Source of the DNA: Bacteroidales bacterium
Lineage (GTDB): Bacteria > Bacteroidota > Bacteroidia > Bacteroidales > UBA12077
DNA: 64,000 bases
Direction of reading: 5' to 3'
Assembly: GCA_016342685.1 (NCBI GenBank)
Contig: JAEINU010000001.1
Coordinates: forward strand, 496,001 to 560,000
This document shows positions 2,516-27,936 of this stretch, piece after piece (position 1 is the first letter of the stretch; every line of letters starts with the position of its first letter). The position numbers were made by a program, and so were the translations under genes. Under the pieces are notes generated by a model that did not search any database, was not told where the DNA came from, and worked only from the letters and a program-made list of their open reading frames with translations.

Positions 2516-2517
2516 TT

Positions 2518-3087: not shown

Positions 3088-3090
3088 GTT

Positions 3091-4137: not shown

Positions 4138-4198
4138 ACCTAAAAATAGTAAGAATTAATTAACATTATTAATAGTTTTGTATTCTTAAAAATATACA

Positions 4199-5149: not shown

Positions 5150-5188
5150 TACTTATTATTATATTTAATCAAAATCTCAAATAGAAAG

Positions 5189-6592: not shown

Positions 6593-6642
6593 ATAAATGG
6601 ATTGCATTCAGAGCTACAATTTATTATCGAAAAATTAATGTT

Positions 6643-7932
6643 ATGTATAATAAGTTAGTTAATAAAGAAGCAAAATTAGCAGTTATTGGTTTAGGGTATG
6701 TTGGATTGCCAATAGGATTAGAATTTGCAAAAAAAATATCGGTTATTGGTTTTGACATCAAACAAGATCGTGTTGAATTGATGAACAATAATATTGATCC
6801 TAGCAGAGAATTACCATTAGAAGCATTTAATGATTGTGATATAAAATTTACATCAGATATAGAGGACTTGAGGGAAGCGAATTTTTATATTGTTGCTGTC
6901 CCAACGCCAATTGATGATTATAATTTACCTGATATGGGACCAGTTTTAAAAGCTTCAGAAACTGTTGGTCGTGTACTGAAAAAAGGTGATTATGTCGTAT
7001 ATGAATCTACTGTATATCCTGGTGCAACTGAAGAAGATTGTGTTCCAGTCTTAGAAAAGGAATCAGGACTAAAATATATTGATGATTTTAAAGTGGGCTT
7101 CTCTCCTGAAAGAATCAATCCAGGAGATAAAGTTAACATTTTGACAACAATTGTTAAAGTGTCATCAGGATGTGATAAAGAATCAGCTGAAAATATAGCT
7201 AAGGTTTATGAATTGGTTATAAAGGCTGGTGTTCATAGGGCAAGTTCTATAAAAGTTGCTGAAGCTTCAAAAATTATAGAAAATACTCAACGAGATATCA
7301 ATATAGCTTTCATGAATGAACTTTCTATTATCTTTAATAGAATGAATATTAATACTTTTGAAGTATTGGAAGCCGCAGGAACTAAATGGAATTTTTTAAA
7401 ATTCTTCCCAGGTTTGGTAGGAGGCCATTGCATCGGTGTTGATCCATATTACCTTACGCACAAGGCAAAACAATTGGGTTACCACGCCCAAATGATAAAT
7501 TCAGGTCGTTTCATTAATGATTCCATGGGTGGTTATGTTGCTAAACAAATTGTTAAAAAATTAGTTAAAGCAGAAAAGCATATTCAGAATTCTAAAGTTT
7601 TAATTATGGGTATAACGTTTAAAGAAGACGTTAGCGATATCAGAAACTCAAAAGTAGTTGATGTTTATAGGGAATTACTTTCTTATGGGGTAAAGGTTGA
7701 TGTTGTTGATCCATATGCGGATATAGAAGAAGTTAATGAAGAGTATAATTTTAAAATGGCAACTAAGATTTCAGATGATTACGATGTCGTTATCGCTGCA
7801 GTTAGCCATGATAAATATTTAAGTTTATCTGAAGATTACTTTAAGTCTATAACTACTGAAAATGCTTTATTTGTAGATATTAAAGGCAATTATCGTAATA
7901 AAATTAAAAATTTAACTTATTGGAGTTTATAA
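6643..7932 (+). CDS. UDP-N-acetylhexosamine 6-dehydrogenase, TviB/WbpO type
   Basis: 429-residue nucleotide-sugar dehydrogenase. An N-terminal [16 protein letters not shown]-binding loop is followed by the IDPSRE stretch typical of the Vi-antigen TviB group, and the catalytic cysteine is at residue 263 in [11 protein letters not shown]. TviB-type enzymes oxidise UDP-GlcNAc (or UDP-GalNAc) to the uronic acid. Here that product would be the input for the WbpB/E/D-like steps, replacing the differently branched WbpA enzyme found in Pseudomonas. Substrate is inferred from context and subgroup. Confidence 0.87.
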
Positions 7933-7933
7933 T

Positions 7934-8806
7934 ATGAAAGGTATTGTATTAGCAGGTGGTTCAGGAACGAGACTATATCCCATAACAAAAGGTGTTTCAA
8001 AACAGATGTTGCCAATTTATGATAAGCCAATGATTTATTATCCAATTTCTGTATTAATGCTCGCAGGTATTAGGGAAATTTTAATAATATCAACTCCTCA
8101 TGATTTACCTCATTTTAAACGACTATTAGGAGATGGGAAAGAATTGGGGATTTCATTTTCTTATGAGGAGCAACCATTTCCTGATGGCTTAGCACAGGCG
8201 TTTATCATTGGAGAAAAATTTATTGGAGAAGATGATGTATGTTTAGTATTAGGTGATAATATTTTCTATGGACATGGCTTTTCAGAGTTATTGGCGAGAT
8301 CAATAAAAAATGTAGAGAAAGAAAATACAGCAACTGTCTTTGGATATTGGGTGAGAGATCCTGAAAGATATGGTGTAGCTGAATTTAATGAAGATGGTAA
8401 AGTTATTAGCATTGAAGAGAAACCGCAATTTCCTAAGTCAAACTATGCAGTTGTAGGTTTATATTTTTATACGAATGAAGTTATTGATATAGCAAAAAAC
8501 ATAACACCTTCTGCTAGAGGAGAACTTGAGATTACAACCGTAAATCAAGAGTATTTAAAGAGAAATAGGTTAAAAGTGGAGTTGATGGGGCGTGGATTTG
8601 CCTGGTTAGATACAGGGACTCATGAATCCTTATTGGATGCAAGTAGATATGTTGAAACTATTGAGACAAGGCAAGGGTTAAAAATAGCTTGTTTGGAGGA
8701 AATTGCATATACAATGGAGTATATTAATAGAAACCAGCTATTGAAATTAGCAGAACCATTAAAGAAAAATCAATATGGACAATATTTAATTAATATTGCA
8801 AAATAA
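7934..8806 (+). CDS. rmlA: Glucose-1-phosphate thymidylyltransferase
   Basis: 290 residues, joining dTTP and glucose-1-phosphate to give dTDP-glucose. The N-terminal [11 protein letters not shown] nucleotide loop, the [15 protein letters not shown] segment and [10 protein letters not shown] are diagnostic for RmlA. It starts one base after the preceding stop and is followed two bases later by rmlC. Its product is needed by RmlB and the 3-amino-3,6-dideoxyhexose enzymes downstream. Confidence 0.97.
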
Positions 8807-8808
8807 AT

Positions 8809-9375
8809 ATGAATTTTATAAAGACTGAAATTCCTGAAGTTATAATAATTGAACCTAATATTTTTGGTGACGAAAGGGGTTATTTCTTTGAATCTTTCAA
8901 GGAGGAAGTATTCAACGAAAAAGTAATTAAAACTAATTTTATTCAGGATAATGAAGCTAAATCATCGTATGGTGTTTTAAGAGGTTTGCATTATCAATTG
9001 CCCCCATTTGCTCAATCTAAATTGGTGAGAGTTATAAAAGGTGAAGTATTAGATGTTGCTGTTGATATTCGTAAAGGCTCACCAACATTTATGCAACATG
9101 TAGCTGTTGTTTTATCTGAAGATAATAAGAAACAATTGTTTGTTCCAAGAGGATTTGCTCATGGTTATGTAGTTTTAAGTGATGAAGTAATTTTTTCCTA
9201 TAAGGTTGATAATAAATATGCTCCAGAGTGTGAGGGAAGTATTGCGTATAATGATCCATCTTTAAATATTGATTGGAAGTTGAAAGATGATGAAGTTTTA
9301 TTATCTGAAAAAGATAAATATTGCAATTCTATTGATAAAATAAATGTTTTTAATTATAATGAAAAATTATATTAG
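8809..9375 (+). CDS. rmlC: dTDP-4-dehydrorhamnose 3,5-epimerase
   Basis: 188-residue cupin epimerase acting on dTDP-4-keto-6-deoxyglucose to give the 4-keto-rhamnose intermediate. DERGYFFES, VLRGLHYQ and the FVPRGFAHGYVVLS motif around the catalytic His/Asp pair are typical of RmlC. There is no RmlD reductase in the window, so dTDP-rhamnose synthesis would need a distant rmlD. The gene abuts rmlB with no spacer. Confidence 0.95.
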   Translation: MNFIKTEIPEVIIIEPNIFGDERGYFFESFKEEVFNEKVIKTNFIQDNEAKSSYGVLRGLHYQLPPFAQSKLVRVIKGEVLDVAVDIRKGSPTFMQHVAVVLSEDNKKQLFVPRGFAHGYVVLSDEVIFSYKVDNKYAPECEGSIAYNDPSLNIDWKLKDDEVLLSEKDKYCNSIDKINVFNYNEKLY

Positions 9376-10380
9376 ATGAAAAGTATTTTAGTAACTGGAG
9401 GAGCTGGATTTATTGGGTCTAATTTCATACCATATTTTATAGAAAAGTATAGTGAATATATGATTGTAAATATGGATAAACTTACTTATGCCGGAGATTT
9501 GTCAAACCTATCTGAAGTTGAAGGTAATCCTAGATATAAGTTTATAAAAGGCGATATTTGCAACAGAGAGTTGGTTGAATATATTTTTAATGAATATGAT
9601 GTTCGCGGTGTAATTCACTTTGCAGCAGAATCGCATGTAGATAATTCTATTGAAGGACCAGAAGTGTTTATTCAAACAAATATTAACGGAACATTTACAC
9701 TTTTGGATGTTGCCAGGAAACAATGGATGGAGTCTCCATTTACTTACAAAAAAGAATATGAAGGATGTAGATTCCATCATATATCGACAGATGAGGTTTA
9801 TGGTACTCTTGGCGAGACTGGTTTGTTTGAAGAAATAACCCCTTATGCACCTAACTCTCCATATTCAGCTGCAAAAGCTTCGTCTGATTTTTTAGTTAGA
9901 GCATATTATCATACATATGGAATGAATGTAACTACTAGTAATTGTTCAAATAATTACGGGTCAAAACAGCATAATGAAAAATTGATACCTGTTATTATTC
10001 GTAAGGCAATAAATGGAGAGAATATACCTATCTATGGAGATGGTAAAAATATTCGGGACTGGTTGTACGTATTGGATCATTGTACTGGTATTGATTTAGT
10101 TTATCATAAGGGTATCTCAGGTGAAACTTATAATATTGGTGGGCGAAATGAAAAAACAAACATGGACATTGTGAGCCATATTTGTGAATATTTGGATAAA
10201 AAACAACCCAAAGCACAAGGTTCTTTCAAAGAACAAATTATCTTTGTGGAAGATAGAGCAGGGCACGACAGGCGCTATGCTATTGATGCTACCAAGATTG
10301 AAAAAGAATTGGGTTGGAAAGCAGATGAGAATTTTGAAAGCGGAATCGAGAAGACTATAGAATGGTATTTAAACAAATAG
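9376..10380 (+). CDS. rmlB: dTDP-glucose 4,6-dehydratase
   Basis: 334-residue extended SDR that makes dTDP-4-keto-6-deoxyglucose, the branch point for both rhamnose and the 3-acetamido sugar. GGAGFIGSNF, HFAAESHVDNSI, STDEVYG, YSAAKASSD (catalytic Tyr/Lys) and RDWLYV are all in place. The start codon follows the rmlC stop directly. The next 90 bases hold no gene before the ketoisomerases begin. Confidence 0.96.
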   Translation: MKSILVTGGAGFIGSNFIPYFIEKYSEYMIVNMDKLTYAGDLSNLSEVEGNPRYKFIKGDICNRELVEYIFNEYDVRGVIHFAAESHVDNSIEGPEVFIQTNINGTFTLLDVARKQWMESPFTYKKEYEGCRFHHISTDEVYGTLGETGLFEEITPYAPNSPYSAAKASSDFLVRAYYHTYGMNVTTSNCSNNYGSKQHNEKLIPVIIRKAINGENIPIYGDGKNIRDWLYVLDHCTGIDLVYHKGISGETYNIGGRNEKTNMDIVSHICEYLDKKQPKAQGSFKEQIIFVEDRAGHDRRYAIDATKIEKELGWKADENFESGIEKTIEWYLNK

Positions 10381-10470
10381 GGAATATTGAAGTATATAAT
10401 AATTAAAAATACTTTATTTATTATTGTCAAAAGTGAAATTGGGATGGTAATCTAATAATTTAGGGCTAAT

Positions 10471-10869
10471 ATGAAAAATGTAAAGTTAATAGAACTTCCT
10501 AAAATTCTGGATGAACGAGGCAATCTATCTTTTATAGAAGGGGAGAATCACATCCCGTTTCAAATAAAGCGTACTTATTGGATTTATGACGTGCCTGGAG
10601 GTGAGATTCGTGGAGGTCATGCTTATAAAGAGCTTTATGAGTTAATTGTTGCACTTTCTGGAAGTTTCGATGTTGTTTTGGATAATGGAATAAACAAACA
10701 AACTTTCTCACTTAACCGATCCTACTACGGTTTGTATATACCTAAAATGGTATGGCGTCGTATGGAGAATTTTTCTACCAATTCATTGGCATTAGTTTTA
10801 GCCTCAGAGATTTTCGATCAAAGAGATTATATTCGAGATTATGAACAGTTTAAATTAATGATAAAATGA
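10471..10869 (+). CDS. WxcM/FdtA-like cupin, first copy, with His-to-Tyr change
   Basis: 132-residue cupin of the dTDP-4-keto-6-deoxyglucose 3,4-ketoisomerase family (FdtA/QdtA, C-terminal domain of WxcM). The family active-site segment normally reads GGHAHK; here it is GGHAYK, so His50 is kept but residue 52 is Tyr. Otherwise the fold is intact (VPGGEIRGG, final DYIRDYEQF). It overlaps the second copy by four bases (ATGA), so the two are probably made together. It may be a subunit, an altered-specificity isomerase or an inactive partner; the sequence cannot decide. Confidence 0.8.
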   Translation: MKNVKLIELPKILDERGNLSFIEGENHIPFQIKRTYWIYDVPGGEIRGGHAYKELYELIVALSGSFDVVLDNGINKQTFSLNRSYYGLYIPKMVWRRMENFSTNSLALVLASEIFDQRDYIRDYEQFKLMIK

Positions 10870-11282
10870 AACAAAACACTGTTTATAATTGCTCTGTTAT
10901 TGAATTACCAAAAATACATAATAGGGCTGGGAATATCACCCCACTACAAAGTAATATTGAAGCCCCATTTGATATAAAAAGAATTTATTATCTATATGAT
11001 GTGCCGGGAGGAGAAGGAAGAGGGGGGCATGCCCATAAAGAATTACAACAATTTTTGGTGGCTGCTAGTGGGTCATTTGATGTGATTATCGATGATGGAA
11101 GAACAAAACGCACCATACATCTATGCCGTCCCTATATTGCACTGCATATTGTACCTGGCATCTGGAGGGATCTGACAAATTTTTCTTCTGGATCGATATG
11201 TTTGGTGCTAGCTTCTCTCAACTATGATGAGAAAGATTATATTCGAGATTACACTAAATTTTCATTGTTAAAAAATGAATAA
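10866..11282 (+). CDS. dTDP-4-keto-6-deoxyglucose 3,4-ketoisomerase, FdtA/QdtA-like, second copy
   Basis: 138-residue cupin with both conserved histidines present (His55 and His57 in GGHAHK), preceded by VPGGEGR and ending in DYIRDYTKF as in the family. It should move the keto group from C4 to C3 so that the aminotransferase at 11817 can act. Whether it gives the galacto (FdtA) or gluco (QdtA) product cannot be read reliably from sequence. It overlaps the acetyltransferase gene by eight bases. Confidence 0.87.
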
Positions 11283-11820
11283 AATACATCCAAGTGCCGA
11301 TGTTCAAACTCAAAATGTAGGAAAAGGCACACAAGTTTGGCAAAATAGTATAATTTTAAAGGGTGCTGTTATAGGCAAAGACTGTAATATAAATTGCCAA
11401 GTTTTTATTGAGAATGATGTGATTATTGGAGACAATGTTACTATAAAACCGGGAGTGCAAATTTGGGATGGTTTGCGCATAGCGAATGATGTTTTTATCG
11501 GACCTAATGTAACCTTTACAAATGATTTGGTTCCACGTTCAAAGCAATATCCCAAAGTTTTTGAAAAAACAATAATCGAGAGAGGATCATCAATTGGTGC
11601 AAATGCTACCATAATATCTGGGAATACCATAGGTGAATACGCGATGATTGGAGCGGGTAGTTTGGTCACAAAAAACATTCCCTCGTTTACTTTGTGGTAT
11701 GGTAATCCGGCTATGCATAAAGGTTACATTACCAAACAGGGAAAAATAATTGGCATGGATTTAAAAGATAAAGATGGATGTAATTATATATTAGTTAACA
11801 ATGAACCTATTATTCAATGA
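11275..11820 (+). CDS. Hexapeptide N-acetyltransferase, FdtC/QdtC-like
   Basis: 181-residue left-handed beta-helix acetyltransferase expected to acetylate dTDP-3-amino-3,6-dideoxyhexose. Hexapeptide repeats run from about residue 15 to 145, with [13 protein letters not shown] and [11 protein letters not shown] near the end. It resembles the N-terminal half of WxcM, whose C-terminal half matches the two preceding cupins, so here the functions are split over separate genes. It overlaps both neighbours (eight bases upstream, four downstream). Confidence 0.86.
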
Positions 11821-12920
11821 TTAAATTTCTAGACTTACAGAAAATTAATGCTCAATATGAAGAAGAGCTAAAACAAGCAGCAGTTCAGGTTATTGAAAGT
11901 GGATGGTATTTACTAGGAGAAAGAGTTGAGCATTTTGAACGAAATTTATCTAACTATACCGGAAGTTCAAATTCTATAGCGGTTGCGAATGGACTTGACG
12001 CATTGCGCTTAATCTTACGAGGATATATTGAGTTGGAAGTAATGACAATAGGCGATGAAGTAATCGTTCCTGCAAATACCTATATTGCATCGGTTATGGC
12101 TATATCAGATAATGGATTGAAACCTGTTTTTATTGAACCAGATTTGGACTCATATAATATTAACATAAAAAAAATTGAAGAGAATATTACTTCACGTACA
12201 AAAGCCATTATGGTAGTTCACCTATATGGACGAGTTTGTTGGAGTAAAGAGATTTCACAAATTGCGAAAAAGTATAATCTTAAGATTATTGAAGATAATG
12301 CTCAAGCAATTGGGGCAGATTGGAATGGTATTAAGACTGGAAATTTAGGTGATGCTGCAGGATTTAGTTTTTATCCAGGGAAGAATTTAGGCGCTTTAGG
12401 TGATTCAGGAGCGGTTACAACCAATGATGATAAGTTATCTGAAATAATTCGTGCATTAGGAAATTATGGATCTAAAAAGAAATATATAAATGAATATAAA
12501 GGATTGAATTCTAGAATGGATGAAATTCAGGCGGCTTTTTTAGATGTTAAATTAAAATACCTTGATAAGGAAAATCAAACAAGACGTGAATTCGCGAAAT
12601 TCTATGTTTCCAATATTAAGAATAAAAAAATATTATTGCCAGAAATTCCAACAAATGAATTAGAACATGTTTGGCATCTTTTTGTAATTAGAACAGAAAA
12701 TAGAGAAAAGTTACAAGAATACCTTTTAATTAACGGCATTCAAACCCTTATCCATTATCCAATTCCGCCACACAAACAACTGGCATACAGGGAGTGGGGT
12801 AACTTGAATTGCCCCATAACAGAGCAAATCCACAATGAAGTATTGAGCTTACCGATTAGCCCAACAATGACTGATGGGGAAGCAAAAAAGGTGGTTGAGA
12901 TTCTAAATCAATTCAAATAG
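11817..12920 (+). CDS. dTDP-3-amino-3,6-dideoxyhexose aminotransferase, FdtB/QdtB-like
   Basis: 367-residue DegT/DnrJ/EryC1 family PLP enzyme with the Schiff-base lysine at residue 189 in [15 protein letters not shown]. Placed directly after ketoisomerases and an acetyltransferase, it most likely aminates C3 of dTDP-3-keto-6-deoxyhexose. It is a distant paralogue of the WbpE-like enzyme at 1388. Start overlaps the upstream stop as ATGA. The module as a whole yields dTDP-Fuc3NAc or dTDP-Qui3NAc. Confidence 0.88.
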
Positions 12921-12925: not shown

Positions 12926-14257
12926 ATGATTGAAAAAATTACAAAGAATTTGAAAAATATTCTGACTGGATTCTTGTACAACGGAATAAAGGTTATTTAC
13001 AAGTGGTTAAAATTACTTTCCAAACCACTTTATAATATCTATTTTAATATTAAATTAAAAAAAGTTCAGGCAAACCATAAAAAGGCACTGGAAATAGTGT
13101 GTAAAAAAGAAAAAATAAAGGTTGCTTTTTTTCTTATTCATGAATCTGTTTGGAAATATAATGGTTTATACCGTATAATGGAAGCTGACGAAGGTTTTGA
13201 GCCTATTGTTGTTGTATGTCCTTTTATAAAGGATGGAGAAGAACAAATGTTAAGGGATTTAGATAAAGCATTTGATTTATGTATTGAAAAAGGATACAAT
13301 GTTGTAAGTACATTAAATAAAGAAACTAACACTTGGCTTGATATAAATAAAGAAATCAAACCTGATATAATATTTTTTACAAATCCGCGTCAATTGACAA
13401 AACCAGAATATTATATTACTAATTTTTCCGATTCAGTATTGACTTGTTACTCTCCTTATGCACCAGGTATTTGTAATCTCCCATTTTCGCAGTACAATCA
13501 GATATTTCATAATCTATTATGGCGCTTTTTTGTCGAAACAGATGTAAATCTTCAAATGTCTAAAAAATATGCAGATAATAAAGGAGTAAACACCATAGTA
13601 ACTGGATCTCCTGCATTCGATCATGCTTTTGGAATATCAAAGAGTACATTTGTTAAAAGGTCAACACGAAAAAAGATAATTTGGGCACCTCATCATACAA
13701 TTGATAACAGAGAAAATCTTTGGCTTTCAAATTTCATTGAAATCAGCGGGACGATGGTTGATTTAGCAATAAAATATGCATCAAATGTTGATTTTGTTTT
13801 TAAGCCACACCCATTGTTAAAATCTAAGTTATATAAACTTGATAATTGGGGAAAGCTAAAAACTGATGAATATTATATTAAATGGGATAACATGCCAAAT
13901 ACAAGTGTTCAATTGGGAGATTATATTAAGCTTTTTGATGAATCTGACGCAATGATTTTGGATAGTGTTTCTTTTATTGTAGAATATATGATTACTAGAA
14001 AACCTATTTTATTTACAATGAGAAATAAAGATGTTTACGCTCTTTTTAACGATCTGGGACAAAAAATGCTTGAATCCTTGGAGCATTCATATACTCTGAA
14101 TGACATTGATCAGTTCATTATTAATGTTATAGAAAATAACAGTTTTCAAAAACAAATAAAACGAGAAGATTTAGTTGATAATTTTATTAAACCGCCATTT
14201 AATAAATCAGCTTCTGAAAATATTTTTAATTATTTAGTAACTACCTTAAATAAATAA
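12926..14257 (+). CDS. CDP-glycerol glycerophosphotransferase-like protein
   Basis: 443-residue protein that resembles the TagB/TagF-type CDP-polyol phosphotransferases. The signs are IWAPHHTI near the middle, FVFKPHP about 40 residues later and ILDSVSFIVEYM in the C-terminal part, the positions where these GT-B-like enzymes carry substrate-binding motifs. The first ~50 residues are basic and hydrophobic, fitting peripheral membrane binding. It ends two bases before a gene for a cytidylyltransferase fused to a PLP enzyme. I infer that it transfers a CDP-activated phospho-alcohol made by that fusion to the glycan. True CDP-glycerol use is the alternative, but no TagD is seen here. Confidence 0.7.
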   Translation: MIEKITKNLKNILTGFLYNGIKVIYKWLKLLSKPLYNIYFNIKLKKVQANHKKALEIVCKKEKIKVAFFLIHESVWKYNGLYRIMEADEGFEPIVVVCPFIKDGEEQMLRDLDKAFDLCIEKGYNVVSTLNKETNTWLDINKEIKPDIIFFTNPRQLTKPEYYITNFSDSVLTCYSPYAPGICNLPFSQYNQIFHNLLWRFFVETDVNLQMSKKYADNKGVNTIVTGSPAFDHAFGISKSTFVKRSTRKKIIWAPHHTIDNRENLWLSNFIEISGTMVDLAIKYASNVDFVFKPHPLLKSKLYKLDNWGKLKTDEYYIKWDNMPNTSVQLGDYIKLFDESDAMILDSVSFIVEYMITRKPILFTMRNKDVYALFNDLGQKMLESLEHSYTLNDIDQFIINVIENNSFQKQIKREDLVDNFIKPPFNKSASENIFNYLVTTLNK

Positions 14258-14259
14258 TA

Positions 14260-16071
14260 ATGCAAGTACTTATTTTAGCTGCTGGTATGGGCAAAAGATT
14301 AGCGGACCTCACTGAACAAACTACAAAATGTATGGTTCATGTAAATGGTGTTCCACTAATAAATAGAGCCTTAGACGTATTAACTGATTTTGATTTATCA
14401 AGAATAGTAATCGTAGTTGGTTATAAAGGAGAAAAGTTGAAAGAACATCTAGGAGATACGTATAATAATGTGCCAATTGAATATGTTGAGAATCCAATAT
14501 ATGATATAACCAACAATATTTACTCTCTATTTTTAGCGAAAGATTTGCTGGATGAAGATGATACATTGCTGGTAGAGAGTGATTTAATTTTTAATAGGTC
14601 TATTATTGAAAAAGCTCTTGCATATCCAGAAAATGAAAATGCAATAGTTGTAGACAAATATCAAGCCTGGATGGAAGGTACTGTGGCAGAAATTGATAAA
14701 AATAAACAAGTTACTAGGTTTCTTTCTAAAAATGAATTTAAATTTCGTGATGTAGAGGATTATTATAAAACAGTAAATATTTATAGGTTTAGTAAGGAGT
14801 TTTCTAAAAAGCATTATTCTCCATTTTTAGAAGCGTACTGTAAATCTGTTGGTCATAATGAGTATTATGAGAATGTTCTTAAAGTATTAGCATTTCTTGA
14901 TTCTACTAAGTTGAATGCTTGTGTTTTAAGTGAAGAAGATAAGTGGTATGAAATTGATGATAAGCAAGATCTACATAATGCAGAAACTCTTTTTTCTGAT
15001 GATATTATGAAATATCAACATCGTTATGGAGGATACTGGCGATTTCCTTTTTTGAAGGATTTTTGCTATTTAGTTAATCCTTATTTCCCTCCCAAAAAGA
15101 TGGTAGATGAGTATAAAGCCTATTTTGAAATCTTACTTCATGACTATCCATCAACAGGGAGTGTTCAAAACATGCTGGCAGCTAAGATGTTTAATTGTGA
15201 GCAAGAGAATATTATTGTTGGAAACGGTGCTGCTGAATTAATTTCAAATTTAATGTCAAGCTTTGGTAACGAAACTATTGGTGTAATAACACCAACTTTT
15301 CATGAATATGTGGCCAGAACTCCAAAAGATAAAATAAGAACATTTACCCCTGTAAATGATGACTTTAGTTATACAGCTGGCAACTTGAAGACATTTAGTA
15401 AAGAAATTGACACATTACTTTTAATAAATCCCGATAATCCATCAGGAAATTTCATCCCTAAAGATTTAGTATTAGAACTTATTTCTGATTTAAAAGAAAG
15501 TGGAAAGAAACTAATATTAGATGAAAGTTTTGTAGATTTCTCTTCAGAGAATGATAAAAATACACTGATTGAAAAAGATGTTATTAGTAAGTATGATAAT
15601 TTGATTATTATTAAGAGTGTAAGTAAAAGCTATGGTGTTCCTGGAATTAGATTAGGAGTTATGGTTAGTTCGAATTTAGAAATTTTGAAAGTTGTAAAGG
15701 AGAAACTGCCAGTTTGGAATATAAATTCCTTTGGAGAATTCTTTTTTCAAATTTATGGTAAATACGAATCTTCATATAAAGATGCATGTAAAAATATAGC
15801 CAGCGAAAGAGATAGACTTTACAATGAACTAAAAAGTATTTCTTTTTTACGACCAATCTATTCACAAGCAAACTATTTTTTATGTGAAGTTATAGGGATA
15901 TCTGCATCGAGTCTTACTAGTAGACTGATGAAACATTTTAATGTTCTTTTAAAAGATTGTACAGGGAAAACAGGATTTGAGGATAAAGAATTTATTAGAA
16001 TTGCCGTTAGAGATTATAGTGATAATGAATATTTATTAGATTCATTGAGAAGGGTATGGCAGAAAAATTAA
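14260..16071 (+). CDS. Bifunctional sugar/phosphocholine-type nucleotidyltransferase fused to HisC/CobD-like PLP enzyme
   Basis: 603 residues in two domains. Residues 1 to about 245 form an NTP transferase like LicC-type phosphocholine cytidylyltransferases (AAGMGKRLADLT loop, VESDLIF metal-binding region). Residues about 255 to 600 form a fold-type I PLP enzyme like HisC and the threonine-phosphate decarboxylase CobD: NPDNPSGN, ILDESFVDF, and Lys456 in SVSKSYGVPGIRLG as the PLP lysine. Similar fusions are known for aminoethylphosphonate (PntC), and HisC-like serine-phosphate decarboxylases occur in Campylobacter capsule loci. I infer synthesis of a CDP-activated amino-alcohol or aminophosphonate. 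No PEP mutase is present, which argues against a phosphonate made locally. The exact substrate is unknown. Confidence 0.78.
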   Translation: MQVLILAAGMGKRLADLTEQTTKCMVHVNGVPLINRALDVLTDFDLSRIVIVVGYKGEKLKEHLGDTYNNVPIEYVENPIYDITNNIYSLFLAKDLLDEDDTLLVESDLIFNRSIIEKALAYPENENAIVVDKYQAWMEGTVAEIDKNKQVTRFLSKNEFKFRDVEDYYKTVNIYRFSKEFSKKHYSPFLEAYCKSVGHNEYYENVLKVLAFLDSTKLNACVLSEEDKWYEIDDKQDLHNAETLFSDDIMKYQHRYGGYWRFPFLKDFCYLVNPYFPPKKMVDEYKAYFEILLHDYPSTGSVQNMLAAKMFNCEQENIIVGNGAAELISNLMSSFGNETIGVITPTFHEYVARTPKDKIRTFTPVNDDFSYTAGNLKTFSKEIDTLLLINPDNPSGNFIPKDLVLELISDLKESGKKLILDESFVDFSSENDKNTLIEKDVISKYDNLIIIKSVSKSYGVPGIRLGVMVSSNLEILKVVKEKLPVWNINSFGEFFFQIYGKYESSYKDACKNIASERDRLYNELKSISFLRPIYSQANYFLCEVIGISASSLTSRLMKHFNVLLKDCTGKTGFEDKEFIRIAVRDYSDNEYLLDSLRRVWQKN

Positions 16072-17159
16072 ATATACTAGTTGTTGGGGGGGGCAATTTG
16101 GGGCATGCGATATATGGTAAAGCAGCTCAAAATAAATATATAAATGTCTCATTGCTAACTTCAAGGCCTAATTTGTGGGCAAGTGAACTTAAAGTTTATG
16201 AAGAAGATGGTTCTTTTTCAAAAGTTAAAATGTTAAATGTTTCTGATTCAGCTGAGGAAATTGTTCCAAATGCCGATTTAATTATTCTAACAATTCCTAG
16301 TTTTTTAATTAGAAATACTTTAATTGAAATAGAACCTTTAATAAAAACAGGAGCTTGGGTTGGATCTATACAGTGTTCAGGCGGTTACTTTTGGATGGCA
16401 CAATCAATATTACCAAAAGGCACTAAGATTTTTGGCTTTCAGAGGGTTCCATTTATATCTAGAATTAGAGAATATGGATCTTCTGTGAACATTAAAGGCT
16501 ATAAAAAGCAACTAAAGATTGCAACAAACAAAAGCTCTGATAATGATCATACAATTATTAATAATTTAAAGAAAATATTTAATACCCCAACAATTAAATT
16601 AAAATCTTTTTTAGAGGTTACATTAACCAACTCTAATCCAATTTTACACCCATCTCGATTATATGATTTGTTTAAAAACATTAGTTTAAATAAGAATTTT
16701 AGAGATGAACCTTTATTTTATGAGGAGTGGAGTGATAATGCTTCTAATATTCTTATTAAATGTGATGATGAGTTAGCTGATATAGTTAGGGCATTAAATA
16801 ATAAAATGGATCCAATTCCTTCAATATTGAAACATTATGGAGTGGATGATTCTTTATCGTTAACGATAAAATTGAGAAGTATAGCAGCATTTAAAGGAAT
16901 ACGATTGGGCTTGTCTAAAGTATCTGAGAATACATTTCGCATAGATTTGAATAATCGATATTTTACAGAAGATATTCCATTTGGACTTTTAATTATAAAA
17001 GGATTTGCGGAACAATTGAAAATTGAAACTCCTATGATTGATGAGATAATCTTATGGGCTCAAAATTTGATGGGAAAAGAATATCTCATCGATAATAGAT
17101 TGATAGGAAAGGATGTTTGTGAAACCGGAATTCCTCAAAACTTTGATTTCAAAGTTTAA
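16056..17159 (+). CDS. Opine (octopine/nopaline) dehydrogenase-family protein with a G8 tract
   Basis: 367-residue NAD(P)-dependent protein. The N-terminal VVGGGNLGHAIYG Rossmann loop and a C-terminal helical domain with a conserved HPSRLYD-like segment (residues near 207) match the octopine/nopaline dehydrogenase family, which reductively condenses a 2-oxo acid with an amino acid. N-(1-carboxyethyl)-amino acids are known decorations of some O-antigens, so a similar role is plausible. It overlaps the preceding fusion gene by 16 bases. The glycine loop is encoded by a run of eight G at 16086-16093, out of character for this AT-rich DNA and a possible slippage site. Confidence 0.72.
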   Translation: MAEKLNILVVGGGNLGHAIYGKAAQNKYINVSLLTSRPNLWASELKVYEEDGSFSKVKMLNVSDSAEEIVPNADLIILTIPSFLIRNTLIEIEPLIKTGAWVGSIQCSGGYFWMAQSILPKGTKIFGFQRVPFISRIREYGSSVNIKGYKKQLKIATNKSSDNDHTIINNLKKIFNTPTIKLKSFLEVTLTNSNPILHPSRLYDLFKNISLNKNFRDEPLFYEEWSDNASNILIKCDDELADIVRALNNKMDPIPSILKHYGVDDSLSLTIKLRSIAAFKGIRLGLSKVSENTFRIDLNNRYFTEDIPFGLLIIKGFAEQLKIETPMIDEIILWAQNLMGKEYLIDNRLIGKDVCETGIPQNFDFKV

Positions 17160-17299: not shown

Positions 17300-18760
17300 A
17301 TGATGGTAAATAATAATTCTTTAAAATCCGCTGCCACCAAAGGCATGTTATGGAGCGCTGTTGAAAAAATTCTATTGCGTTTTGGCCAGTTTGCAATTCA
17401 TATAATACTTGCTAGGCTTTTACTGCCCAAGGATTTTGGGTTAATTGGGATGCTAACAATTTTCATTGCCTTATCCCAGATTTTTGTTGATAGTGGAATG
17501 GAGTCAGGCTTAATACAAAAGCAGAAACGTACTGACCGGGATTTTTCAACAGTACTAATTTTTAATTTTGGAATCAGTGTTCTTTTTTATTTTATTCTTT
17601 TTCTCCTTGCTCCATTTATTGCTGAGTTTTATTCAAAACCTGAGTTGACAATGCTCACGAGAGTATTGGGATTAAACGTAATCATCAATTCATTGGCTGT
17701 TGTACAGCGAACAATATTTAAAATTGAGCTTGATTTTAAAACTCTTGCTAAGGTCAATGTGCTTTCAATTATTGTTAGTGGTGTAATCGCAATTTTGTCT
17801 GCATATTATGGAGCGGGCGTTTGGGCGCTTGTAATACAAAATTTAGTACAAGCAACAATAACCACAATAATGTTTTGGGGATTCAGTAAATGGAGACTAA
17901 GTATTCATTTTTCAAGAGACTCTTTTAAACATTTATTTGGATTTGGTTCTAAATTACTTTTAGCTGGTTTATATTCAAAATCTTTACAGGAAGTTTATAA
18001 TGTTGTTATTGGTAAATTTTATAATGCTTCTGAATTAGGTTTTTATTACAATGGAAAGAAATTAACAGAAGTATTAACGGGGATTGTTTCTAGCGTGATA
18101 CAACAGGTAAGTTATCCAATATTGGCTTCTGTTCAAGATGATAAAAAACGAATGATTAGCATTTATAGTCAAACTTTACGGATGACTGCATTTTTAATTA
18201 TACCTTCTATGACATTATTGGCATTGCTTGCAGACCCTTTAATAAGGCTCTTATTAACTGATGAATGGCTGCCTGTTATTGTCCTTCTTCAATGGTTAAG
18301 TTTTGCAACGATGTTCAGACCAATTAGTGTTATAAACATGAATATATTAAATGCTATTGGTCGTTCTGACCTTTTTTTAAAGACCGATCTTTCAAAACTA
18401 CCTTTTATTGTAATAGCCTTAATTATTACAGTCCCAATTGGACTTGAAGCTATTGTTATTGGGAGTCTTATTACTTCTTTGATTTCTTTTTTTATAAACG
18501 CATATATGCCGGGAAAACTTTTTGATTATGGTGCCATCAAACAATTGAAAGAAATGATTCCAGTTTTTCTTGCAACAGGCTTTATGGCATTATTTGTATA
18601 TTTGGGAACTCTTTGGATTAATTCTAATATTATAAAGATAATGGCAGGAAGTATTTTAGGAATTTTTACTTACTTATTACTTTGTCATATTTTTAAAATC
18701 CAAGAATTAAAAGAAATTCATAATATAGTACACAATTTTAGAAATAAAAGAAAAGATTAA
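17300..18760 (+). CDS. Wzx-type polysaccharide flippase (MOP superfamily)
   Basis: 486-residue integral membrane protein with about 12 to 14 hydrophobic segments and the N-terminal pattern of WzxC-like flippases (ATKGMLWSAVEKI, then LLPKDFGLIGM). It would move undecaprenyl-linked repeat units across the inner membrane. A second ATG lies one codon downstream and could equally be used. The 140-base gap before it contains no gene; it is the first clear break in the tight operon, so an internal promoter is possible. Confidence 0.9.
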   Translation: MMVNNNSLKSAATKGMLWSAVEKILLRFGQFAIHIILARLLLPKDFGLIGMLTIFIALSQIFVDSGMESGLIQKQKRTDRDFSTVLIFNFGISVLFYFILFLLAPFIAEFYSKPELTMLTRVLGLNVIINSLAVVQRTIFKIELDFKTLAKVNVLSIIVSGVIAILSAYYGAGVWALVIQNLVQATITTIMFWGFSKWRLSIHFSRDSFKHLFGFGSKLLLAGLYSKSLQEVYNVVIGKFYNASELGFYYNGKKLTEVLTGIVSSVIQQVSYPILASVQDDKKRMISIYSQTLRMTAFLIIPSMTLLALLADPLIRLLLTDEWLPVIVLLQWLSFATMFRPISVINMNILNAIGRSDLFLKTDLSKLPFIVIALIITVPIGLEAIVIGSLITSLISFFINAYMPGKLFDYGAIKQLKEMIPVFLATGFMALFVYLGTLWINSNIIKIMAGSILGIFTYLLLCHIFKIQELKEIHNIVHNFRNKRKD

Positions 18761-18827
18761 TATATCAACTAAAATCTTATAGTATAAAATATTACATTAT
18801 CCTTTTTAAATAGGGGACAAATAAATT

Positions 18828-19832
18828 ATGAAAAAAAACAATCCACTTGTTAGCGTTTGTATTATTTCTTATAATTCTTCAAATGTTATTGTCGAAACAC
18901 TGGAAAGTATAAAGAATCAAACGTATAAAAATATAGAATTAATTATTTCTGACGATTGTTCAACTGATAATACAGTTGAAGTTTGTGAAAAATGGTTAGA
19001 TAAAAATAAATACCGTTTTAGTAATGGAGAAATTATTACATCTCCAATAAATACTGGCACTTCAATTAATCTTAACAGGGGGCTAAAACAATCAAATGGT
19101 ATATGGGTAAAAATTATGGCGGCAGATGATTTATTATTTCCTCATTCCATAGATGCATTTTTAAAGTACTCAACTGAAAATAATAAGAAAGCTTGTGTTA
19201 GTAAACTTGACTATTTTGGTAATGTCAATAAAGCAAAGCAAAAAGAATATTCGTATGATTTGTTTTACAATAGATATTCAAAATTAGATGTTTCGGGAAA
19301 ATATAAAATGTTGCTAAGTGAATGTCTATTACCAATGCCGGGATTATTCATTTTAAAAGAATTGTTGGTAGCTATTGATTATATTGATGAGAAATATACA
19401 TTTGGTGAAGAGTGGCCAACATATATGAAAATACTTGAGAGAAATATAGATTTGGCATATTTTGATGAAAAACTAGTTAGCTATCGTAGTTCTGAAGATA
19501 GTCTTAGTGGGAAAAAATATGTTAATACAGATAAAGGTGTTGCCTATACTCCTGCAAAGAGAAAAGTATTTAGCGATTCATTGAAATTCTTTAATGACTA
19601 CCGGAAGCCACAATTGAAAAAGAGGAGAATGTATCTACAAATCTGGAGTCAAATTTTAGGTTATAAAATGGCTGATTTAAGATTTGAATCAAAACTTTCT
19701 GTAGGAGATAAAATAAAATTAACTTTAATGCAATTAATTTATCCTGTAACTTATACTAGGATTTTTCAATATATACATAGTGGGAGGGTGCATTATATTT
19801 TTTTTAGACTTAAAAATATTTTTAAATTTTAA
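18828..19832 (+). CDS. Glycosyltransferase family 2
   Basis: 334-residue GT-A transferase. It opens with VSVCIISYNSSNVI, then ISDDCSTDNT, and has a DXD-type AADD near residue 102 for metal and nucleotide-sugar binding. The C-terminal third is basic and probably membrane-associated. It should add one sugar of the repeat unit on the cytoplasmic side. Donor and acceptor cannot be inferred from the sequence. Confidence 0.87.
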   Translation: MKKNNPLVSVCIISYNSSNVIVETLESIKNQTYKNIELIISDDCSTDNTVEVCEKWLDKNKYRFSNGEIITSPINTGTSINLNRGLKQSNGIWVKIMAADDLLFPHSIDAFLKYSTENNKKACVSKLDYFGNVNKAKQKEYSYDLFYNRYSKLDVSGKYKMLLSECLLPMPGLFILKELLVAIDYIDEKYTFGEEWPTYMKILERNIDLAYFDEKLVSYRSSEDSLSGKKYVNTDKGVAYTPAKRKVFSDSLKFFNDYRKPQLKKRRMYLQIWSQILGYKMADLRFESKLSVGDKIKLTLMQLIYPVTYTRIFQYIHSGRVHYIFFRLKNIFKF

Positions 19833-19883
19833 ATGCTACCTATAAAATTATCAACTGACTATGTTTAATTTAAATTATAGAAG

Positions 19884-21107
19884 ATGAAAGCATTTTTATT
19901 ATTAATGCTCTTTTTTGTAAATATCTACAATCCTTTTTCAGTGTTTCTAACTGCAGGGTTCAATTTATTTGTGTTGTTGTTGTTACTTAGGATTGAGTTA
20001 ATTAATAAAAGAGAATTTCTAAATTTAATGATTTTTTCTATTATCATAATTATATGGCAAGTATTTGTTTTCATACTAAACATCAACTTTTCAGGATTTC
20101 TTTTGGGAAAGTATTTTAGGATTGTTTTGTCAACATTTTTTTTGGGCTTAATAATTCCAAACTTTTCTTTCTCTGCAAAAAAAATAATTAATATAATCTC
20201 AATAATATTGTTTTTACATCTTTTGGCGATTGCTGTTCAAATTTTATTCCCCTCTATAGTAAATCCTATGGCAGGTTTTTTTAATTTTGATAGGGATACT
20301 GAGCTATTAGATCGTTTAACCATAAGGAATTTGGGATTAGCAGGTTCATTTGATTTTGCAGCTTTATTGTCAGTATTTGGTATATATGTATTTTATCTTC
20401 AATACAAAAATACCAAAAAAATAATGTTCTTAATACTATTTTTACTTGCGTTTCTCAGCTGTTTTAGAATATCGAGAATGGCAATGATTCTTGGGTTTTT
20501 CGTATTTATTTCAATTTCATTTATTCTGCTAAAGAACTTATCATTATTTAAGAAAATACTTATTACACCCATACTTGTTGGGGTATTTATTGTAGTATTT
20601 AATTTTGCATTTCCTATATTAGTTGGATCTCTTTCTTTTTTACAAAAAACTTCACTTAACAAAGGTTATGTTATAGATAGAGCAGAATACAGTACATCAG
20701 ATAAGACTTTATTGGACAGGCATTTATTTTTTCCTGAATCGACTTATAAGAGTATAATTGGTGAGGGTGTTAAAATTAGTGGTACAGATATTGGCTATGT
20801 CAAAACAATATTTTCTATAGGAATTATAGGACTTTTGTTAATTATTATGCAATATTTATACATGATAAGGCGAGTTAGGAAAATTAAGAAAAGAAAAACA
20901 TCAACTGAATTAGTGCAACTCTGTAATTATTTTATTTTTTTTACTATAATGCTATTTGTTGTGAATTTGAAAATTTTGTTGCTTTACAGTAGAGGAGCTC
21001 ATGAATTTGTATTGCTTATGTTCTTCACAATTTTGACTTTACATAACATGGCTGATACGAATGATAATAAAATAGAGAATTTTAATGTTCGAGAGACTAC
21101 ATTTTAA
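19884..21107 (+). CDS. O-antigen polymerase-like membrane protein (Wzy candidate)
   Basis: 407-residue protein made almost entirely of hydrophobic segments (about 10 to 12) with a longer polar loop around residues 250 to 310, the general plan of Wzy polymerases. Wzy proteins share little sequence, so the call rests on topology and position between flippase and glycosyltransferases. The ligase-like protein at 26609 is the other candidate for polymerisation, but that one has the Wzy_C/WaaL-type motif. A loop Arg/His-rich segment (RLTIRNLG) may be functional. Confidence 0.68.
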   Translation: MKAFLLLMLFFVNIYNPFSVFLTAGFNLFVLLLLLRIELINKREFLNLMIFSIIIIIWQVFVFILNINFSGFLLGKYFRIVLSTFFLGLIIPNFSFSAKKIINIISIILFLHLLAIAVQILFPSIVNPMAGFFNFDRDTELLDRLTIRNLGLAGSFDFAALLSVFGIYVFYLQYKNTKKIMFLILFLLAFLSCFRISRMAMILGFFVFISISFILLKNLSLFKKILITPILVGVFIVVFNFAFPILVGSLSFLQKTSLNKGYVIDRAEYSTSDKTLLDRHLFFPESTYKSIIGEGVKISGTDIGYVKTIFSIGIIGLLLIIMQYLYMIRRVRKIKKRKTSTELVQLCNYFIFFTIMLFVVNLKILLLYSRGAHEFVLLMFFTILTLHNMADTNDNKIENFNVRETTF

Positions 21108-21146
21108 ACTGAATTGAGTAAATTATTAATATAACTATATCCAGCT

Positions 21147-21977
21147 ATGAATAAATCTATTTCTATATTATTTGCGTGTGTAAACTATAACACTAATGAT
21201 AAATTAAATGATTTGCTCGATTCGATTAATAAAGCATATTTAAAAACAAATAAGAACTTAAATATTGATATACTAATCGGTGATAATTCAAAAAAATTTC
21301 AACTAATTCCGGAAATATTAGAAAAGAATATTAAAATTACTCATGTTGAAAATCGAGCTAATTTAGGATATATAGGTGGAGTTGTAAATTCATTAAATGA
21401 ATCAAAAACTAATATTTCTAATTATGATTATTTTATAATTTCGAATGTTGATTTGAAGTTAGACGATAACTTTTTTAATGAATTAATCGAATTAGAACAA
21501 GATTCCTCCGTAGGTTGGTATGCGCCTAGTATAATCTCTGAAAAAGAAGGAAGAGATAGAAATCCTAAGATATTATACAGACCATCACTAAAAAAAATGA
21601 AACTTACAATCCTAATGTATAAATTTCCAATATTTTATTACTTGTATCTAAAATTCATTTATGTATTAAGATCAAAAAAAATCCAATCAAATAATCTAAA
21701 CAACGAAATATATGCTGGCCATGGATCATTTATGATATTTACAAAGAATTTTAATGATAAAAACGAAGATTTTAGTTTTCCCAGTTTTTTATTTGGGGAA
21801 GAAATTTACTTTGCAGAACAAGTTAAAAATTCAAAGCTTAAAACAGTTTATATTCCTAAACTCAGGATATATGATTTTGATCATGCTAGTACAAGTAAAA
21901 TTAAAAAAAGGAAATATTTTAAATTAAATTATCAATCAATGAAGATTATAACTCAAAAATACTTTACTAATGAATAA
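21147..21977 (+). CDS. Glycosyltransferase family 2, rhamnosyltransferase-like
   Basis: 276-residue GT-A transferase with ACVNYNTNDKL at the N-terminus, an ANLGYIGGVV donor-binding segment and a NVDL metal site near residue 98, the arrangement seen in rhamnosyltransferase-like GT2 enzymes. Position 190-200 (YAGHGSFMIF) matches the acceptor-side motif of this group. It overlaps the next gene by eight bases. Since RmlD is not visible, rhamnose as donor is only a family-based guess. Confidence 0.82.
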   Translation: MNKSISILFACVNYNTNDKLNDLLDSINKAYLKTNKNLNIDILIGDNSKKFQLIPEILEKNIKITHVENRANLGYIGGVVNSLNESKTNISNYDYFIISNVDLKLDDNFFNELIELEQDSSVGWYAPSIISEKEGRDRNPKILYRPSLKKMKLTILMYKFPIFYYLYLKFIYVLRSKKIQSNNLNNEIYAGHGSFMIFTKNFNDKNEDFSFPSFLFGEEIYFAEQVKNSKLKTVYIPKLRIYDFDHASTSKIKKRKYFKLNYQSMKIITQKYFTNE

Positions 21978-23217
21978 AATTGAAAAAGTAGTTTATAATA
22001 TTGTTAAAAATAATGTGAAGGTTAAGATAGTTATTAAAAGGATTTATCAGTCTTTCTTTTTAATATTTAAGCCCAAACGTTTAGAAACAAAATATGATGT
22101 AAAAATAGCTGAAGGATATTTTTTTGGTTTTCACGATAAAAACCCTTGGTCAAATAATGATTATTTATTAGCACACAAAATAGATAGTTCAGTGCAAGGA
22201 GTCCCAACTAAAGAAGATTGTGTTGAAATAGGTTATTTTAAAGACACTGAACTAAAAGAGTTTAAGACAATCGATAAAACAAAATCTTGGAACTGGCAGC
22301 AAGGAGCTATGCTTCAGTGGATTGGAAACAGGGATCAGATAATGTTTAATTATTGGGATGGTAATCAGAATGTTGGTAAGATAGTTGATTTAAACGGCAA
22401 ACGTATAAAATTTTTACCCTATGCTGTAGGAGCAGTTAGCAATGATAGTAATTATATTGCTAGTTATGATTTTGAAAGGCTTAATAGAGGTATGTATGGG
22501 TATGGATATGCTAATGAAAATAAAAATATTAAAACTTTGGATGATAATATCCCATTAGATTCAGGATTTAGGATTTTCAGTATTAAAGAAAATCAGGAGA
22601 TGCTTAATATATCTATTAATGAAATTAACAATCTTTTAGGTGAAAGAAAGCTAAATGGATACTTATTTGTTACACATTTCTTATTTTCTCCTAACAATGA
22701 AAGATTCTTATTCTTAATTAGATCATACATAAAGAATAGAAGATTAACTTCAAGAATGATTTCGTGTGATATTCACGGTGAAAATATACATATTTTTCCA
22801 TGCGGAAATATGGTTTCTCATATAACTTGGGTTGGGTCAGATAAAGTTTTAGCTTATTGTTCAGATATTAATGAAAAGGATGGGTATTATTTATTTAATG
22901 ATCAAGATGAAGGATATAAGAAAGTCGGAGAAAAAGAATATACATTTGATGGGCATCCGCAATTTAATGAAATTGTCAATTCAATTATAACGGATAGTTA
23001 CCCTAACCGAAAAAGATTACAGGAATTAAGTATTTATAATTTTAATTTAAATGAAAAAAGATTAATAGGTCAATTTTATTCGCCAGTGAAATTTAGTAAT
23101 GAATTTAGATGTGATTTGCATCCAAGATGGAATAAAGATGGGACAAAAATATGCATCGATACAACATACACAGGTAAGAGAGCATTAGGTGTAATTTATT
23201 TAAATAAACAAATATGA
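21970..23217 (+). CDS. Unknown beta-propeller-like protein in the glycan locus
   Basis: 415 residues; I cannot assign a function. After a basic N-terminus with a short hydrophobic stretch (residues about 20 to 33), the rest is a series of beta-rich units. Several have the shape 'sequence-position, D/N, G/N, aromatic' that TolB-like and oligogalacturonate-lyase-like propellers show; the C-terminal unit reads LHPRWNKDGTKICIDTT. There is no signal peptide of standard form. It overlaps glycosyltransferase genes on both sides (eight and four bases), so it is translated with them. It could be a glycan-modifying or scaffolding enzyme of the inner membrane face. Confidence 0.6.
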   Translation: MNKIEKVVYNIVKNNVKVKIVIKRIYQSFFLIFKPKRLETKYDVKIAEGYFFGFHDKNPWSNNDYLLAHKIDSSVQGVPTKEDCVEIGYFKDTELKEFKTIDKTKSWNWQQGAMLQWIGNRDQIMFNYWDGNQNVGKIVDLNGKRIKFLPYAVGAVSNDSNYIASYDFERLNRGMYGYGYANENKNIKTLDDNIPLDSGFRIFSIKENQEMLNISINEINNLLGERKLNGYLFVTHFLFSPNNERFLFLIRSYIKNRRLTSRMISCDIHGENIHIFPCGNMVSHITWVGSDKVLAYCSDINEKDGYYLFNDQDEGYKKVGEKEYTFDGHPQFNEIVNSIITDSYPNRKRLQELSIYNFNLNEKRLIGQFYSPVKFSNEFRCDLHPRWNKDGTKICIDTTYTGKRALGVIYLNKQI

Positions 23218-23969
23218 AGAATCTTGTATCCATAATAACCCCATCATACAATTCGACCAGTTTTATTTCAGAAACAATAGAATCTGTTTTAGCACAAACA
23301 TATGATAACTGGGAAATGACTATTATAGATGATGCTTCTCAGGATAATTCCGTAGATATTATTGAGAATTTTGTTAAAGCTGATGCAAGAATAACATTGA
23401 TTAAATTAGATAAAAATGTTGGAGCTGGTGATGCAAGAAATAGGGGTATTGAAAAAGCACGGGGAAAATATATTGCTTTTTTAGATAGTGATGATGTATG
23501 GCATGAAGAGAAGCTTGAAATACAAATAAAATTAATGGAAGATTCTCAAACTCCAATAAGTTTTACTGGATATACTATAATGGATGAACCCTTAATCAAA
23601 TCGAAATCCATAATTAATGTACCTCAATCCGTTGATTTAAAGGAGTATCTAAAAACGACTATTATTGGTATGTCTACGGCTATTATTAATAGAGATATAG
23701 TAGGGGAGTTTAAATTAAGTTCAATACGAACGAGGCAAGATGGAGTATTGTGGATTGAATTGTTAAAAAAAGGTTATACAGCAATTGGATTGAATATGCA
23801 ATTGACAAAGTATAGATCAAGAAAGAATTCTATATCAGCAAATAAATTAAAAGCTATAAAAAGAATTTGGTATATCTATAGAAAGTATGCTGGACTTAAC
23901 CTATTTTATACTTTTTATTATTTTATGTTTTATATTATAAACAATATTCAAAGAAGATATTTTCAATAA
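23214..23969 (+). CDS. Glycosyltransferase family 2, TuaG/WcaA-like
   Basis: 251-residue GT-A transferase with VSIITPSYNSTSFI, IDDASQDNS, GAGDARNRGIE and the LDSDDVW metal motif, all canonical. The hydrophobic aromatic-rich tail (from about residue 225) resembles TuaG, a teichuronic-acid glycosyltransferase. It overlaps the upstream gene as ATGA. Donor is unknown; uronic-acid donors are available in this locus. Confidence 0.88.
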   Translation: MKNLVSIITPSYNSTSFISETIESVLAQTYDNWEMTIIDDASQDNSVDIIENFVKADARITLIKLDKNVGAGDARNRGIEKARGKYIAFLDSDDVWHEEKLEIQIKLMEDSQTPISFTGYTIMDEPLIKSKSIINVPQSVDLKEYLKTTIIGMSTAIINRDIVGEFKLSSIRTRQDGVLWIELLKKGYTAIGLNMQLTKYRSRKNSISANKLKAIKRIWYIYRKYAGLNLFYTFYYFMFYIINNIQRRYFQ

Positions 23970-24022
23970 TATATAGATTTATACCATAATTAGAAAATAT
24001 CAATGAAATAATTAAATAAAAA

Positions 24023-24232: not shown

Positions 24233-24236
24233 TTTT

Positions 24237-25109: not shown

Positions 25110-25130
25110 CCAACTAAAAAGTAACATGCT

Positions 25131-26114: not shown

Positions 26115-26148
26115 AATTCTATTTGTGACTGAAATTAGAATAATATAA

Positions 26149-27910: not shown

Positions 27911-27936
27911 TATTTGGTAATGCTGAAAATAAAAAT

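Follow-up and report, generated by a model that had tools for sequence, protein, structure and literature searches.

Several described systems resemble parts of the locus analyzed here. The Lic1 system of phosphocholine decoration imports choline, uses LicA, and combines the cytidylyltransferase LicC with the transferase LicD. PntC-AEPT (PDB 6pd1 and 6pd2) carries a cytidylyltransferase fused N-terminally to a pyridoxal phosphate (PLP) enzyme, in that case a class V transaminase that needs the phosphoenolpyruvate (PEP) mutase pathway, and SMUL_1544 (PDB 6oux) is a free-standing PLP enzyme of norcobamide synthesis. Octopine dehydrogenase (PDB 3c7a) reductively condenses an amine with pyruvate; N-carboxyalkyl amines are formed by its family and by the ornithine cyclodeaminase (OCD)/mu-crystallin family, which are unrelated in fold. 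A tauropine (N-carboxyethyl-taurine) dehydrogenase is known among the OCD homologues (PMC3840593, PMC4113996). In Campylobacter, PLP enzymes supply phospho-amino-alcohols to a surface glycan: Cj1436 decarboxylates serine phosphate, and Cj1437 makes serinol phosphate (PMC12409886).

We analyzed a stretch of 64,000 nt (the window; positions 496,001-560,000 of contig JAEINU010000001.1, assembly GCA_016342685.1, Bacteroidales bacterium, UBA12077), in which three co-directional genes encode a putative transferase (P0001), a cytidylyltransferase-PLP fusion (P0002), and an octopine-dehydrogenase-family enzyme (P0003). The initial annotation had described three overlapping or nearly touching genes of these families, and both the layout (a gap of 2 nt between the first two, an overlap of 16 nt between the last two) and the family assignments are borne out, with Pfam domains found in each protein. 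We find that they belong to a real, widely co-conserved biosynthetic cassette, which we predict, with a probability of roughly 0.5, to make N-carboxyalkylated phosphoethanolamine and attach it to a surface glycan. The cassette would be a variant of cytidine diphosphate (CDP)-activated phospho-amino-alcohol decoration with an opine-type modification, and to our knowledge it is not a described system.

It shares a LicC-type cytidylyltransferase with Lic1, and LicD is the transferase most often found near its relatives, but here a fused PLP decarboxylase apparently supplies the phospho-amino-alcohol by de novo synthesis, the amine is apparently N-carboxyalkylated, and a GT-B transferase stands in place of LicD. 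Whereas SMUL_1544 is free-standing, its relative in P0002 is fused to a cytidylyltransferase and occurs in glycan loci. The Campylobacter amine differs in being dephosphorylated and amide-linked to glucuronic acid, with neither CDP activation nor an opine enzyme. For P0003 the predicted amine is phosphoethanolamine or its CDP derivative, unlike the substrates of octopine and tauropine dehydrogenases, although taurine is a phosphoethanolamine analogue.

Domain families and predicted chemistry

The N-terminal domain of P0002 matches NTP_transferase (Pfam; residues 4-241), and its closest PDB match is LicC (1jyk, E 1.4e-12), with PntC (6pd1) weaker at 2e-7. Its AlphaFold model (mean pLDDT 81) superposes on LicC with Z 27.2 and a root-mean-square deviation of 1.9 Å over 225 residues. 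Across 95 fusions, the nucleotidyltransferase (NTase) motifs TNNIYSL, ESD, and YEID are kept, and almost every member retains both active sites. The LicC-type NNxYSL motif is absent from PntC, which has another NTase motif; structure alignments (VIA-align) lacking a close PntC match were not counted as excluding PntC, for which motif and domain class were used. The activation with cytidine triphosphate (CTP) proposed in the initial annotation is supported for this domain, which is closer to LicC than to PntC. Kinship to LicC is supported by fold and sequence, with phosphoethanolamine, rather than phosphocholine, as the predicted substrate.

The C-terminal domain matches Aminotran_1_2 (Pfam; residues 301-596) and scores higher against the threonine-phosphate decarboxylase CobD (TIGR01140, 172.5 bits) than against the histidinol-phosphate transaminase HisC (TIGR01141, 143.1 bits), in both cases below the curated NCBIfam cut-offs (290.55 and 276.55, respectively). 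Its closest PDB match is SMUL_1544 (6oux, E 1.1e-39), ahead of CobD (1lc5, 1e-24) and HisC (2e-23), and its model gives Z 33.0 with CobD, 32.7 with 6oux, and about 30 with HisC. P0002 and 6oux have the motifs DESF, WNIN, and RxAxR in common, which match neither the DEAF/WSVN of CobD nor the DEAY/YNVS/RxxxG of HisC, and a clade uniting the fusions, their unfused paralogues, and the serine phosphate decarboxylase, apart from CobD and HisC, has a support of 0.999. The 6oux entry is titled "Structure of SMUL_1544, a decarboxylase," and the Sulfurospirillum homologue is annotated as a norcobamide serine-O-phosphate decarboxylase. The initial annotation had allowed either decarboxylation or transamination by a HisC/CobD-like enzyme; on motifs, tree, and fold, decarboxylation of O-phosphoserine fits best among its options, and the motifs and clade speak against assignment to HisC or CobD proper.

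P0003 matches Octopine_DH (PF02317; 118.8 bits against a cut-off of 30, E 2.6e-34) and aligns over its full length with octopine dehydrogenase (3c7a, 1.3e-38). Its catalytic residues are H198, R301, and D306 (H212, R324, and D329 in 3c7a), all three invariant in 47 homologues. Two further residues, R130 and K272, are invariant in the P0003 family; octopine dehydrogenase has T and A at these positions, siderophore-type relatives have other residues, and the conservation is consistent with an anionic, phosphate-bearing amine substrate. We predict that P0003 N-carboxyalkylates the amine of phosphoethanolamine or CDP-ethanolamine.

P0001 matches CDP-glycerol glycerophosphotransferase over part of its length (PF04464, residues 247-377; 24.4 bits against a cut-off of 22.1) and has invariant PH256 and PH295P motifs. 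Its AF2 model (pLDDT 80, pTM 0.79) adopts a GT-B fold, with Staphylococcus aureus TarL in complex with CDP-ribitol as the top Foldseek match (E 1.3e-11). Because of the Pfam match and the first rank of TarL, P0001 is likely, though not securely, a phosphotransferase attaching the CDP-activated group. As a reading based on families, the initial annotation's logic of activation with CTP followed by attachment is upheld.

In the proposed pathway, substrates, products, order of steps, keto acid, and acceptor sugar are all predicted. The PLP domain would decarboxylate O-phospho-L-serine to phosphoethanolamine, which the fused LicC-like domain would convert with CTP to CDP-ethanolamine. P0003 would condense the free amine, on phosphoethanolamine or CDP-ethanolamine, with an alpha-keto acid, for which pyruvate is the likeliest candidate, and reduce the imine with NAD(P)H, and P0001 (elsewhere LicD or a CDP-alcohol phosphotransferase) would move 2-(1-carboxyethylamino)ethyl phosphate onto the O-unit. 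The tauropine dehydrogenase activity of an OCD homologue, together with the resemblance of taurine to phosphoethanolamine, supports an N-carboxyalkyl phosphoethanolamine. Methyltransferases accompany the fusion, with LicD, in three loci (L010, L043, and L065), which would be expected of a shared ethanolamine-type amine. DUF1015 provides a circumstantial connection with phosphoserine: its gene lies in a row with serC and a serA-like gene in the source genome (C23; L172:5116-8985) and adjoins the fusion in L040 (a Fusobacterium) and L088. These positions hint that DUF1015 has a role related to phosphoserine; a literature search on a serine kinase activity of DUF1015 yielded nothing usable.

The predicted product has a natural counterpart in a 2-[(R)-1-carboxyethylamino]ethyl phosphate group that Perepelov et al. 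reportedly described in 1999 from the O-antigen of Proteus mirabilis O14; a literature search on this constituent yielded no usable paper. Since enzymes of the octopine dehydrogenase type give an (R)-1-carboxyethyl center, the match would include the configuration. We know of no described biosynthesis genes for 2-(1-carboxyethylamino)ethyl phosphate, and a paper on Proteus O-antigen clusters names O14 and mentions no such genes. A Proteus mirabilis opine dehydrogenase (L154) was rejected as an O-antigen gene, as it lies in an SbnA/SbnI-like, siderophore-type locus of a strain lacking the fusion. There (L154:10907-15877), and in Sinorhizobium fredii NGR234 (L156:2132-9177), SbnA-like, opine dehydrogenase, and ParB-domain (SbnI-like) genes stand together. 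The Staphylococcus siderophore locus uses the OCD enzyme SbnB; an octopine-dehydrogenase-family enzyme takes its place in the siderophore-type locus of NGR234 and probably in that of Proteus, which parallels the replacement seen beside the fusion.

Co-conservation of the fusion and opine-type enzymes

An alignment-based search retrieved 80 named related loci, 79 of them readable, mostly from Bacteroidota but also from Fibrobacter, Akkermansia, Treponema, Lachnospiraceae, Sumerlaeota, Planctomycetaceae, and Campylobacterales. Hoylesella timonensis, Bacteroides cellulosilyticus, and Ancylomarina are among the cultured carriers. An opine dehydrogenase gene lies immediately 3′ of the fusion in 36 of the 79 loci, with a median gap of -4 nt, and an OCD/mu-crystallin gene occupies this position in 13. 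Within three genes of the fusion the counts are 40 and 14, respectively, and no locus has both. The genes at the opine dehydrogenase position in L121 and L134 carry no family assignment. The fusion tree requires at least 9 changes of the OCD label, and sister taxa differ; the two families are thus exchanged repeatedly at the same place beside the fusion. LicD, which is generally common in such loci, lies within three genes of the fusion in 51/79, and P0001 homologues do so in 5/79, flanking the fusion in L071, L109, L110, L114, and L132 and occurring in the same locus in L051.

Three loci (L077, L098, and L101) encode single proteins of 943-946 aa that form one clade. Pfam analysis of L101 finds NTP_transferase, Aminotran_1_2, and Octopine_DH in one polypeptide, and L077 and L098 were assigned to this three-domain type by their matching length (945-946 aa) and shared clade. 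Among 295 genomes of the same order, the full fusion is present in 11 (split in one) and a P0003-type enzyme in 6 (at least 216 bits, the next match scoring 129 bits); all 6 of the latter also carry the fusion (hypergeometric p = 5e-10), in G683 and G585 on different contigs. Co-conservation had been set beforehand as an observation on which the initial annotation could fail, and it is strong. The recurrence of fusion and opine dehydrogenase in dozens of genomes, and in one protein at three loci, argues that the gene arrangement is not due to chance.

Alternative substrates and destinations

Several observations weigh against N-carboxyalkylated phosphoethanolamine as the product attached by this cassette. 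The choice of a decarboxylase over a transaminase depends on motifs and on kinship to one characterized enzyme, and the serinol phosphate-forming transaminase Cj1437 belongs to the same superfamily (PMC12409886). The Pfam score of P0001 is marginal, and in VIA-align its model reaches Z 19.5-20.6 with TarL/TagF against 21-23 with UDP-N-acetylglucosamine 2-epimerases, which share the GT-B fold. Pyruvate is indistinguishable here from other keto acids, and about a quarter of the loci, some of which end at contig ends, have neither opine-type enzyme. Two Campylobacteria genomes carry fusions ~40% identical to P0002 in operons that also encode PEP mutase and phosphonopyruvate decarboxylase. These fusions may act as transaminases or as phosphonoalanine decarboxylases, which makes the decarboxylation predicted for P0002 less certain.

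The role of Cj1437 in the C. jejuni capsule, along with the Z of about 30 between the PLP model and HisC-like transaminases, would suit transamination of dihydroxyacetone phosphate or glycolaldehyde phosphate to a phospho-amino-alcohol, from which a CDP-serinol-type donor would be made and N-carboxyalkylated. We consider this unlikely, as the PLP motifs fit the serine phosphate decarboxylase rather than HisC and the domain falls in the clade with 6oux. No recognizable tandem Cj1436/Cj1437-type pair was found in 298 Campylobacteria genomes. The fusion might instead be a PntC analogue making cytidine monophosphate-2-aminoethylphosphonate, from phosphonoacetaldehyde by transamination or from phosphonoalanine by decarboxylation, as its PntC-AEPT-like domain layout and the two Campylobacteria operons would allow. 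The initial annotation had offered such an aminophosphonate as an alternative; it is very unlikely in the source genome, which is 100% complete and has no PEP mutase. PEP mutase is also absent from 14 of 16 other fusion-bearing genomes (the remaining 2 have one elsewhere than at the fusion), and none was found near the fusion in any surveyed locus other than the two Campylobacteria ones; we therefore rejected a PEP mutase route for this genome. The NTase has the LicC-type motif that PntC lacks, and the PLP domain is of the CobD-like Aminotran_1_2 class, not a class V aminoethylphosphonate transaminase. The Campylobacteria operons themselves (L201:8501-15910 and L202:2543-11158) encode radical SAM proteins, a PEP mutase-cytidylyltransferase fusion, phosphonopyruvate decarboxylase, APS-kinase-like proteins, the NTase-PLP fusion, and a formyltransferase, and in both the NTase-PLP fusion sits between the PEP mutase/phosphonopyruvate decarboxylase genes and the formyltransferase gene.

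It is also improbable that the cassette serves two decorations, with the fusion and P0001 adding plain phosphoethanolamine and P0003 making an independent N-carboxyalkyl amino acid (e.g., alanopine or carboxyethyl-lysine) that is amide-linked to a sugar. Such amino acids occur in Providencia O-antigens, according to references given in PMC10609480, and part of the loci have the fusion without an opine dehydrogenase. Against this stand the union of NTase, PLP, and opine dehydrogenase domains on one chain, the absence of any P0003-type enzyme without the fusion in the 295 genomes, even where the genes are unlinked, the exchange with OCD at the same position, and the invariant R130 and K272, which suit a phosphate-bearing amine. 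Of the two roles that the initial annotation gave the opine dehydrogenase, modification of the activated product is thereby strengthened, and synthesis of a separate amino acid becomes less likely. That the CDP-activated product ends up in the head group of a phospholipid or sphingolipid, and not in a glycan, seems most doubtful: an unfused paralogue pair in the source genome and the fusion in L041 are each followed by a CDP-alcohol phosphatidyltransferase-family gene, but the cassette lies inside a Wzx/Wzy cluster and is paired with a soluble TagF/TarL-like transferase or LicD.

The unfused operon (1342894-1345518 of C9; L011:8894-11518) encodes a LicC-like NTase, a PLP protein resembling the serine phosphate decarboxylase, and the CDP-alcohol phosphatidyltransferase, and an NTase-PLP pair followed by a gene of 210-218 aa is kept in several Bacteroidales (L055-L060). 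As these genomes also carry phosphatidylserine decarboxylase, the operon may provide an ethanolamine head group of its own, e.g., for a sphingolipid. Distant NTase-PLP fusions occur with ATP-grasp proteins in natural-product-like clusters of a Rahnella plasmid (L041, which adds CDP-alcohol phosphotransferase and HAD proteins) and of Priestia megaterium pBM700 (L042, which adds a DXR-like enzyme).

Genomic setting and implications

Upstream of the cassette is a dTDP-amino-sugar block and downstream a Wzx flippase gene; the surrounding region, judged by its gene content, is a Wzx/Wzy-type surface glycan cluster (Table 1). Two FdtA-type isomerase genes stand in tandem at 10471-11282, and a 134-aa open reading frame at 27937-28341 matches the first half of NTP_transferase only and is probably a truncated nucleotidyltransferase.

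Table 1. Features of the cassette and its surroundings, in window coordinates
Feature	Position	Strand	Description
P0001	12926-14257	+	443 aa; GT-B transferase, TagF/TarL (CDP-polyol phosphotransferase) type
P0002	14260-16071	+	603 aa; cytidylyltransferase-PLP fusion
P0002, N-terminal domain	14260-15006	+	LicC-like cytidylyltransferase; residues 1-249
P0002, C-terminal domain	15007-16068	+	O-phosphoserine-decarboxylase-like PLP domain; residues 250-603; PLP lysine K456
P0003	16056-17159	+	367 aa; octopine-dehydrogenase-family enzyme
Putative diamino-uronic-acid-type block	1334-7932	+	DegT aminotransferase, hexapeptide acyltransferase, epimerase, GFO/IDH oxidoreductase, two UDP-sugar dehydrogenases (Pfam)
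dTDP-3-amino-3,6-dideoxyhexose block	7934-12920	+	RmlA, RmlC, RmlB-like dehydratase, two FdtA-type isomerases, hexapeptide acyltransferase, FdtB-type aminotransferase (Pfam)
Downstream glycan genes	17300-28338	+	Wzx flippase, glycosyltransferases, Glycos_transf_4-type glycosyltransferase, Wzy_C protein (Pfam)
Wzx flippase	17300-18760	+	Pfam
Glycos_transf_4-type glycosyltransferase	25131-26114	+	Pfam
Wzy_C protein	26609-27910	+	Pfam

Overall, the initial annotation is supported in part: its families, its activate-and-attach logic, and the co-conservation hold, and its aminophosphonate option finds no support in this genome. More tentatively, and at somewhat less than even odds, the cassette may represent a widespread, previously undescribed pathway in which O-phosphoserine, CTP, and pyruvate are combined into CDP-N-(1-carboxyethyl)ethanolamine, at times by a single three-domain protein, for an exchangeable surface-glycan decoration, with two unrelated opine-forming folds, N-methyltransferases, and possibly formyltransferases as alternative modifiers of the amine.

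If the proposed chemistry is correct, it would take opine chemistry beyond free amino acids, to a head group activated by a nucleotide, provide a choline-independent CDP-ethanolamine route for glycan decoration, and give the first genetic candidate known to us for the biosynthesis of 2-(1-carboxyethylamino)ethyl phosphate. The cassette is common in the glycan loci of gut Bacteroidales and Prevotella, where immune recognition and the binding of phages are influenced by zwitterionic or charged groups.

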